Part shown: positions 36,746 through 38,259 of the stretch, in pieces
How positions within the stretch are numbered: position 1 is the stretch's first letter
Layout: each line of letters begins with the position of its first letter
Notes under the pieces: generated by a model
The model's input: only the letters and a program-made list of their open reading frames with translations
Database searches by the model: none
Told to the model about the DNA's origin: nothing
From: Streptacidiphilus sp. ASG 303
GTDB taxonomy: Bacteria; Actinomycetota; Actinomycetes; Streptomycetales; Streptomycetaceae
Assembly: GCF_020991365.1 (NCBI RefSeq)
Contig: NZ_JAJLRA010000005.1
Location: forward strand, 186,001-250,000
Reading direction: 5' to 3'
DNA: 64,000 nt
Position numbers and translations under genes: made by a program

Positions 36746-37822
36746 ATGGAACCCACAGCCCACGGCGCCGCGGACCGCACCCCGGGAGGCCGCGCCTGCT
36801 TCTGCACCATCGTGCCGCCGCACGTCCTGGACCGGCTGGCGGAGGCCGGCGACGCCGCGGTCCGGGACGCCGCCCGGCGCTCCCTCGCCCTGGACGCCCG
36901 GCACCGGGAGAACCGCGTCCTCGCCCGCCGCGCCGCACCGCCGCCCGCGACCGCCGGCGACCGCCCCGAGCGGACCGTCCGCGACGCCCGCCACACCGAG
37001 CACCTGCCCGGCCGCACGGTGCGCCGCGAGGGCGGCGCGGCGGTCGCGGACGGCTCGGTGAACCGGGCGTACGACGGCCTCGGCGCCACCTTCGCCCTCT
37101 ACCGCGCGGTCTACGGCCGCCGCTCGATCGACGGCGCCGGACTGCCGCTGGACGCGACCGTGCACTACGGCCGCGACTACGACAACGCCTTCTGGGACGG
37201 CGAGCGGATGGTCTTCGGCGACGGCGACGGCGAGGTCTTCGGCGACTTCACCGTCCCGCTGGACGTCATCGGCCACGAGCTGACCCACGGCGTCACCCAG
37301 TACACCGCCGAGCTGGAGTACCGGGGCCAGTCCGGCGCCCTCAACGAGTCGCTCTCCGACGTCTTCGGCTCCCTGGTCAAGCAGTACGCCCTGCAGCAGA
37401 CCGCCGACCGGGCGGACTGGCTGATCGGCGCCGGGCTGCTGGCGCCGCGGGTGCACGGCGTGGCGCTGCGCTCCATGCGGGCGCCCGGCACCGCCTACGA
37501 CGACGAGGTGCTGGGGAAGGACCCGCAGCCCGCCACCATGGACGGCTACGTGGACACCCGGGACGACGACGGCGGGGTGCACATCAACTCCGGCATCCCT
37601 AACCACGCCTTCTACCTCGCGGCGACCGCGCTCGGCGGCAACGCCTGGGAGCGGGCCGGGCAGGTCTGGTACGACGCCCTGACCTCGCCGGGGCTGCGGC
37701 CGGACGCCGACTTCGCGGCCTTCGCGGCGGCCACGGTGGAGGCGGCCCGCGCCCGCTACGGCGAGGGCCGGGAGGCGGACGCGGTGGCCAAGGGGTGGGC
37801 GCAGGTGGGCGTCACGGGGTGA
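36746..37822 (+). CDS. Protealysin-like M4 (thermolysin family) metalloprotease
   Basis: A 358-residue zinc protease. A short cysteine-containing propeptide of the protealysin kind ([16 protein letters not shown], residues about 20-35) precedes the peptidase domain. The zinc site is [12 protein letters not shown] (residues about 174-185) and the third ligand Glu lies in [29 protein letters not shown] supplies the substrate/His region. There is no signal peptide, as for protealysin, which stays in or leaks from the cytoplasm. ATG 36746 is the first start giving the conserved propeptide. The next gene on the strand is an emfourin-type inhibitor. Confidence 0.92.
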
Positions 37823-37860
37823 CCGGCGCCGGCCCGGCCGCCGGGGGGCGGGCGGCGCGA

Positions 37861-37943
37861 CGGGCCGGTGCCGGGCGCGCCGGGGCGTCCGGCGGGGGGC
37901 GGGGCGCCCCGGCGGCCGTCCCGCGCCCGCCGGCACCGGCCCG
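37861..37943 (+). other. Large nested inverted repeat between protease and inhibitor genes
   Basis: Outer arms CGGGCCGGTGCCGGGCGCG (37861-37879) and its complement at 37922-37943 pair with a single 3-base bulge. An inner CCGGGGCG/CGCCCCGG hairpin lies at 37880-37912. It fills most of the 170 bases between the two genes and could act as a leaky terminator or RNA-stability element. Confidence 0.7.
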
Positions 37944-37992
37944 TCGCGGCAACCCCTCGCCAGACCGGCCCGCCGGATAGCAGACTGGCACC

Positions 37993-38259
37993 ATGCGCAT
38001 CAGCGTCACCCGCACCGGCGGCCTCGCCGGGATCGCGCGCCGGGCCGAGCTGGACACCTCCGCACGGACCGACGCGCCGCACGTCCACGCCCTCGTCCGG
38101 GAGGCGATGGCCTCCGGCCTGCGGACCCGGAGCTTCGGCGTGCCCGACGGCTTCCACTACGAGATCACGGTGGACGGGCGGACGGTGCACTGCGCCGACC
38201 CGCGCCTGACGGAGGCCCAGCGGGAGCTGGTCTCCCTGGTGCTGCAGGAGGGCGCCTGA
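37993..38259 (+). CDS. Emfourin-type protealysin inhibitor
   Basis: An 88-residue cytoplasmic protein. MRISVTRTGGLAGIARR at the N terminus, a predicted beta-rich core, and FHYEITVDGRTVHCADPRLT match the small inhibitor family (protealysin inhibitor, emfourin) encoded beside protealysin-like proteases in other bacteria. The genetic partnership with the M4 protease just upstream is the strongest evidence. It presumably protects the cell from premature protease activity. It ends at a small hairpin shared with era. Confidence 0.82.
   Translation: MRISVTRTGGLAGIARRAELDTSARTDAPHVHALVREAMASGLRTRSFGVPDGFHYEITVDGRTVHCADPRLTEAQRELVSLVLQEGA

Follow-up and report, generated by a model that had tools for sequence, protein, structure and literature searches.

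The adjacent genes for a protealysin-type protease and an emfourin-family inhibitor in the stretch of DNA analyzed here (64,000 nucleotides from Streptacidiphilus sp. ASG 303; hereafter, the window) are probably two transcription units, each with its own putative promoter and with a gene-end hairpin between them, a reading to which we assign a probability of roughly 0.7 (elements in Table 1). The genome belongs to Peterkaempfera (Streptomycetaceae); its genus-mate G002 shares gap and upstream block with P. griseoplana NRRL B-3064 (L003 and L119). Both genes lie on the plus strand and are flanked by two minus-strand genes, era and one that, from its leader, we take to be leuA. The gap between protease and inhibitor (37823-37992) measures 170 nt; this length, the adjacency of the genes, and their coordinates agree with an earlier, model-made interpretation of the same DNA (the sequence-only reading). 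It is the longest gap among 132 distinct loci at which a protease was found upstream of the inhibitor (range 2-170 nt, median 52). Upstream of leuA, a leader peptide ORF (36541-36494, minus strand) with four consecutive Leu codons has the look of a leucine attenuator, which is known at leuA of Streptomyces, and DNA similar to this leader could be recognized by eye at loci where the inhibitor is an orphan. P. griseoplana carries a second protealysin–emfourin pair elsewhere in its genome (L031; G002:C18:38992-40038), with 65% and 51% identity to the window pair.

Table 1. Elements of the protease–inhibitor locus and comparable stems, in window coordinates.
Feature	Position	Strand	Details
Putative leaderless protease promoter	36711..36739	+	GTGACA 36711-36716, 17-nt spacer, GACCCT 36734-36739, 6 nt before ATG
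Predicted protealysin-type M4 metalloprotease gene, 358 aa	36746..37822	+	ORF translation, Pfam, PDB sequence match
Large hairpin, rich in GC, with further stems nested inside a perfect 19-bp core stem	37856..37948	+	Starts 33 nt past the protease stop codon
Putative leaderless inhibitor promoter	37957..37986	+	TCGCCA 37957-37962 (weak -35-like), 18-nt spacer, CAGACT 37981-37986, 6 nt before ATG
Emfourin-family protease inhibitor gene, 88 aa	37993..38259	+	ORF translation, Pfam; AlphaFold2 model
era	38291-39241	-	Next gene beyond the inhibitor
Other perfect stems, 16 bp or longer	31628-31670, 61890-61930, 44992-45029, 26708-26743, 11678-11716		4-88 nt past a stop codon by rough gene calls, no T-run

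The product of the first gene is a predicted protealysin-type M4 protease. It matched the Pfam models Peptidase_M4 (97.1 bits) and Peptidase_M4_C (186.2 bits), and its translation contains HELTH, GALNES, and VHINSG, motifs whose roles are known from thermolysins and which include the zinc motifs (HExxH and the downstream E). The propeptide model PLN_propep scored 23.6 bits, below its cut-off of 28.1, and PPH stands where PPL is expected; the alignment with the best solved relative (2vqx, E 5.6e-116) starts at residue 21, in the propeptide region. Inspection by eye revealed no evident signal peptide. The product of the second gene matched Pfam Emfourin (PF20242; 49.9 bits, cut-off 27), and its AlphaFold2 model is a small alpha/beta fold with a mean pLDDT of 89.9. 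By family membership, it is likely an inhibitor of the upstream protease. With Pfam and 2vqx, the assignment of the pair to these two families by the sequence-only reading was borne out. Searches of the PDB by sequence and by fold returned no convincing homolog that would be a solved emfourin structure (the fold search was empty at E <= 0.001); the Streptomyces subtilisin-inhibitor-type folds in its top rows (TM ~0.4, rmsd ~8) were not counted as relatives.

In Serratia proteamaculans, protealysin and emfourin are encoded by one operon, pln-m4in, and emfourin occupies the M4 active site in a 1:1 inhibitory complex; the operon, the active site complex, and the idea of an immunity function were thus already known (PMC9505478). 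The window resembles that system in that the gene of a protealysin-type M4 protease, in which no signal peptide is evident, precedes one for a small protein of the emfourin family, but it differs in having a 170-nt gap, a hairpin, a promoter-like block, and no strong Shine-Dalgarno sequence before the inhibitor. Where the sequence-only reading had likened the pair to that of Serratia, the adjacency of the genes holds, but the Serratia pair is one operon and the window pair is probably not one simple transcription unit.

Directly upstream of the inhibitor start lies a block resembling a promoter for a leaderless mRNA, with a -10-like box that reads CAGACT in the window and CACACT or CACCAT at other loci, 6-7 nt before the ATG; TCGCCA recurs ∼18 nt above the box at the three Peterkaempfera loci. 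The upstream regions compared came from 206 loci (7 without a match, leaving 199 rows, one of them the window, and 156 distinct sequences), a non-random sample comprising all listed Kitasatospora, both other Peterkaempfera, some Streptacidiphilus and Streptomyces, and, from a set of 546 named loci, the 80 best. When a -10-like hexamer was defined by A at position 2 plus T at position 1 or 6, ending 5-9 nt before the start, it was present at 24/24 loci without an intact protease found upstream, at 66/67 with a gap of at least 50 nt, at 49/50 with a gap of 12-49 nt, and at 9/15 with a gap below 12 nt, compared with mean fractions of 0.25, 0.25, 0.27, and 0.14, respectively, in dinucleotide-shuffled sequences; because the loci are related, these counts are not independent. 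Anti-Shine-Dalgarno pairing of -6 kcal/mol or stronger was found at 0/24, 2/67, 9/50, and 13/15 loci of the same classes. For the window inhibitor, the corresponding energy is -3.3, that is, no strong Shine-Dalgarno sequence precedes it. The block is also conserved: across 72 loci drawn from Peterkaempfera, Kitasatospora, and a few Streptomyces whose inhibitors are similar, the two 10-column blocks nearest the ATG held 13.0 and 12.4 bits versus 3.9-8.0 in the four above, conservation being strongest over the last 20 nt and partial over ∼45 nt.

The Streptomyces consensus is TGAC at -35 and TANNNT at -10 (PMC4895711 and PMC6742748), and 21% of S. coelicolor mRNAs are leaderless (PMC4895711). 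The window inhibitor resembles such leaderless genes in its -10-like box 6-7 nt (in the canonical layout, ∼7 nt) before an ATG start and in the lack of a strong Shine-Dalgarno sequence, but differs from them in that the hexamer starts with C, not T, in the window and in the other two of the three Peterkaempfera loci. A full TANNNT was found at the box position of 0/156 loci, and a simple promoter scanner, which does not cover leaderless promoter types or T-less terminators, reported no sigma-70 promoter. The sequence-only reading had advised a search for an independent inhibitor promoter; a conserved candidate block is what that search yielded, with the simple scanner negative, and it is from this block that we infer promoter activity. 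Several Streptomycetaceae loci have a gap of 9 nt; there, the TAG of the box (TAGACG, TAGGCG, or similar) doubles as the stop codon of the protease. Among the short-gap loci with anti-Shine-Dalgarno pairing, the box was also present at 7/13 and absent at 6/13. The latter six (L017, L018, L022, L023, L024, and L027), with a Shine-Dalgarno-like sequence and no box, look like true operons, and the arrangement with separate promoters is therefore not universal. Neither separate promoters nor inhibitors lacking a protease came up in literature searches on emfourin, protealysin, and SCO2529/smpA, in the texts within their reach, which excluded most subscription journals and supplementary tables.

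The protease start has a similar appearance. In a comparison of 12 loci, in 7 of which the protease N-terminus was in reach, TGACA was found together with a box whose second letter is A and whose last is T, 6-7 nt upstream of the ATG, in the window and at L002, L003, L005, L006, and L086 (L035, at a TTG, was not counted), so that both genes may be leaderless. We take SCO2529 (smpA), a putative intracellular metalloprotease of S. coelicolor, to be the probable ortholog of the window protease; the inhibitor gene of that species presumably bears the number SCO2530, for which a literature search found no paper. SCO2529 RNA is strongly reduced in adpA mutants, and a SCO2529 clone could not be introduced into E. 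coli (PMC2936110); the gene also appears in a table of ArgR sites (PMC5839063). The accessible parts of these two accounts make no mention of a neighboring inhibitor. Because SCO2529 depends on AdpA, the inhibitor could be constant and the protease induced.

Among 394 genomes of the family, both genes were found in 339, only the inhibitor in 35, only the protease in 1, and neither in 19. The inhibitor was scored as present at E <= 0.001 (BLAST with the window protein), and the protease by its best E-value, which was either <=1.1e-31 (present) or >=7.6e-8 (absent), with no case between; up to 10 candidates per genome were scored, 6 genomes without a listed match were inferred, and G222, in which the protease is split between frames, was counted as having it. 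Searches with the full-length protease in the 35 inhibitor-only genomes did no better than E 1.9e-37 (40% identity), the level of other M4 proteases; intact protease neighbors of emfourin genes gave E <=1.3e-138. G170 keeps a C-terminal remnant of the protease, as judged by eye. The Pfam Emfourin model found no match in the six Streptacidiphilus inhibitor-only genomes given to it nor in G229, the inhibitors of which are therefore assigned by BLAST alone, and those of G376 and G383 scored below its cut-off. The sole protease-only genome, G005 (L217), encodes a protease with the motifs HELAH and ALAES, followed by an apparent era; emfourin was not detected there.

In Kitasatospora, 49 distinct loci have a protease upstream (gaps of 57-157 nt) and 21 have no intact one. 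At 12 of 14 such loci examined (Kitasatospora and Streptacidiphilus), where the protease is missing or broken, the leuA upstream region joins the promoter-like block of the inhibitor directly; the other two (L097 and L098) retain a broken protease or a remnant. Five protease-less Streptomyces inhibitors have a Shine-Dalgarno-like sequence in place of the block. The orphan inhibitors remain under purifying selection: mean dN/mean dS was 0.17 (78 pairs), 0.08 (1 pair), and 0.21 (3 pairs) for 18 of the 24 protease-less loci (ungapped, first 86 codons), whereas paired inhibitors gave 0.136 in Kitasatospora (8 inhibitors, 28 pairs), and those of Peterkaempfera gave 0.125 (3 pairs). On trees built from the inhibitor only, the protease-present state changed 8 times with protein and 8 times with coding sequences; these trees derive from a short gene, score two broken copies as lacking the protease, and leave out the five Streptomyces orphans. 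They replaced a first tree made from emfourin plus downstream DNA, which gave 10 changes and long-branch warnings.

A functional interpretation compatible with two promoters is that the pair forms an effector–immunity module resembling a toxin–antitoxin system, the inhibitor of which, having its own promoter, can be kept after loss of the effector as a defense against foreign proteases. We consider this possible, though tentative. It draws on the 35-to-1 asymmetry between inhibitor-only and protease-only genomes, on the dN/dS of orphan inhibitors (0.08-0.21, against 0.136 for the paired Kitasatospora ones), on the 9/35 inhibitor-only genomes without any Peptidase_M4_C match, and on the immunity role already proposed for Serratia (PMC9505478). 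Against it stand G005, where a protease with zinc motifs occurs without detectable emfourin, the fact that no secretion route is known, and the 26/35 inhibitor-only genomes in which an M4_C match remains and may represent a target of the inhibitor. Survival of inhibitors without the protease fits an immunity or leash role but also control of other M4 proteases in those 26 genomes. Type II toxin–antitoxin systems are cotranscribed pairs whose toxin does harm once the antitoxin is missing; retention in the family is as lopsided as described, but cotranscription looks unlikely in the window. The toxin–antitoxin-like balance suggested by the sequence-only reading is indirectly supported by the asymmetry of retention, and the one genome with the protease alone speaks against it. 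In its most far-reaching form, which we likewise regard as speculative, emfourin of Streptomycetaceae would be a free-standing immunity gene with its own leaderless promoter, repeatedly kept after loss of the protease in separate lineages, even without detectable M4 protease, and its target would be protealysins of competitors or a non-M4 protein.

The hairpin in the gap is large and nested, as the sequence-only reading had it, and its core stem exceeds chance. Of 20,000 simulations that kept the dinucleotide composition of the gap, 7 produced a stem of at least 18 bp, and three such stems were observed in the window versus none in 60 simulated 64-kb windows. Weaker outer pairing extends the structure from 37843 to 37961. 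The inverted repeat of 83 bp claimed earlier was not recovered: no arm of that length exists, and numbers of this order appear only as the distance that shorter stems span (84 nt at 37835-37918, 93 nt at 37856-37948), the best ungapped inverted repeat in the gap being 37843-37900/37904-37961 (58-nt arms, 74% complementary). When a 231-nt stretch was folded as RNA, 4 of 200 shuffled versions did as well or better (z -2.14), and for the gap without its final 30 nt, none of 60 did (z -2.59). Conservation of the hairpin is lacking even among Peterkaempfera species. The gap of one sister species (L002) has no hairpin beyond that of shuffles (z +0.54), P. griseoplana (L003) has a different, shorter one, and only 5 of the 50 distinct loci with gaps of at least 75 nt, including the window, are unusually structured (z below -2; median -0.6), which gives no support to a conserved RNA structure in the gap. 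No Rfam family matched at gathering score within 34400-38600. L007 (Streptacidiphilus; gap 133 nt) has a different, very strong hairpin at the same place (z -6.0), the sequence of which is presumably common between Streptomyces genes. That the hairpin is a dispersed repeat is unlikely, although a diverged repeat family is conceivable: searching the genome with the 170-nt gap returned the gap itself, its reverse complement, and 45 weaker matches at other places (69-89% identity; 40 of 918 candidates scored), which we take for shared GC-rich composition.

Six perfect stems in the window, the hairpin among them, reach 16 bp or more (span within 130 nt), and all six are intergenic, 4-88 nt past a stop codon, and without a T-run, according to rough gene calls. 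These came from a crude, home-made picker based on GC content by codon position, which missed the protease itself (its stop codon was taken from the ORF translation) and assigned no gene over long stretches, such as 10431-11805 next to one of the stems. As the stems seem to mark gene ends in the window, the hairpin most simply marks the end of the protease gene. A canonical intrinsic terminator was not found at this site (no T-run follows the stem, and the scanner gave 0 matches). Long GC stems can shield 3′ ends or serve as substrates of RNase III. In S. clavuligerus, 353 of 535 structured transcript ends are U-poor (PMC8269248). Such ends, and the I-shaped terminators of GC-rich bacteria, resemble the hairpin in being GC-rich stems past a stop codon without a T-run; unlike them, the window stem is large and nested and spans at least 93 nt. 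Most likely, the hairpin ends or protects the protease mRNA as an ordinary gene-end element.

The pair would then be transcribed mostly as two units. A promoter of its own, probably of the leaderless type, would drive the protease, the mRNA of which would end at or near the T-less, GC-rich hairpin, which may act as an I-shaped terminator or as a barrier at the 3′ end after Rho-dependent termination. A second promoter, with its -10-like box 6 nt upstream of the inhibitor ATG, would serve the inhibitor and yield a leaderless mRNA, for which a Shine-Dalgarno sequence is unnecessary. On a read-through transcript, the inhibitor ORF would lack a ribosome site, so that little inhibitor should be made from such RNA. 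Transcribed separately, the two genes would have their enzyme/inhibitor ratio set by two promoters, and the inhibitor could exist before, or without, the protease.

It is unlikely that the hairpin serves mainly as an element of mRNA stability or RNase III processing within mixed transcripts, with both promoters feeding the inhibitor. The capacity of long GC stems for either role would allow this, as does the view of the S. clavuligerus authors that U-poor structured ends reflect termination or are 3′ termini (PMC8269248), but the stem is not conserved and has no Rfam counterpart. The mechanism put forward by the sequence-only reading, in which the hairpin attenuates or truncates one bicistronic mRNA and thereby lowers inhibitor relative to protease, is improbable: a real and very stable hairpin does lie between the genes, the Serratia pair is an operon, and the six box-less short-gap loci have a cotranscribed look, but the stem varies within the genus, the window inhibitor lacks a strong Shine-Dalgarno sequence, and the same promoter-like block precedes the inhibitor where the protease gene has been lost. 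Separate promoters and an ordinary gene-end hairpin fit these facts better.

Taken as two transcription units, the pair seems uncoupled in its expression at the level of the promoter, and the inhibitor repeatedly outlives the protease. The effector–immunity idea for protealysins thereby becomes testable by plain gene removal in soil bacteria, and the question is raised as to what emfourin inhibits in genomes where no M4 protease is detectable.
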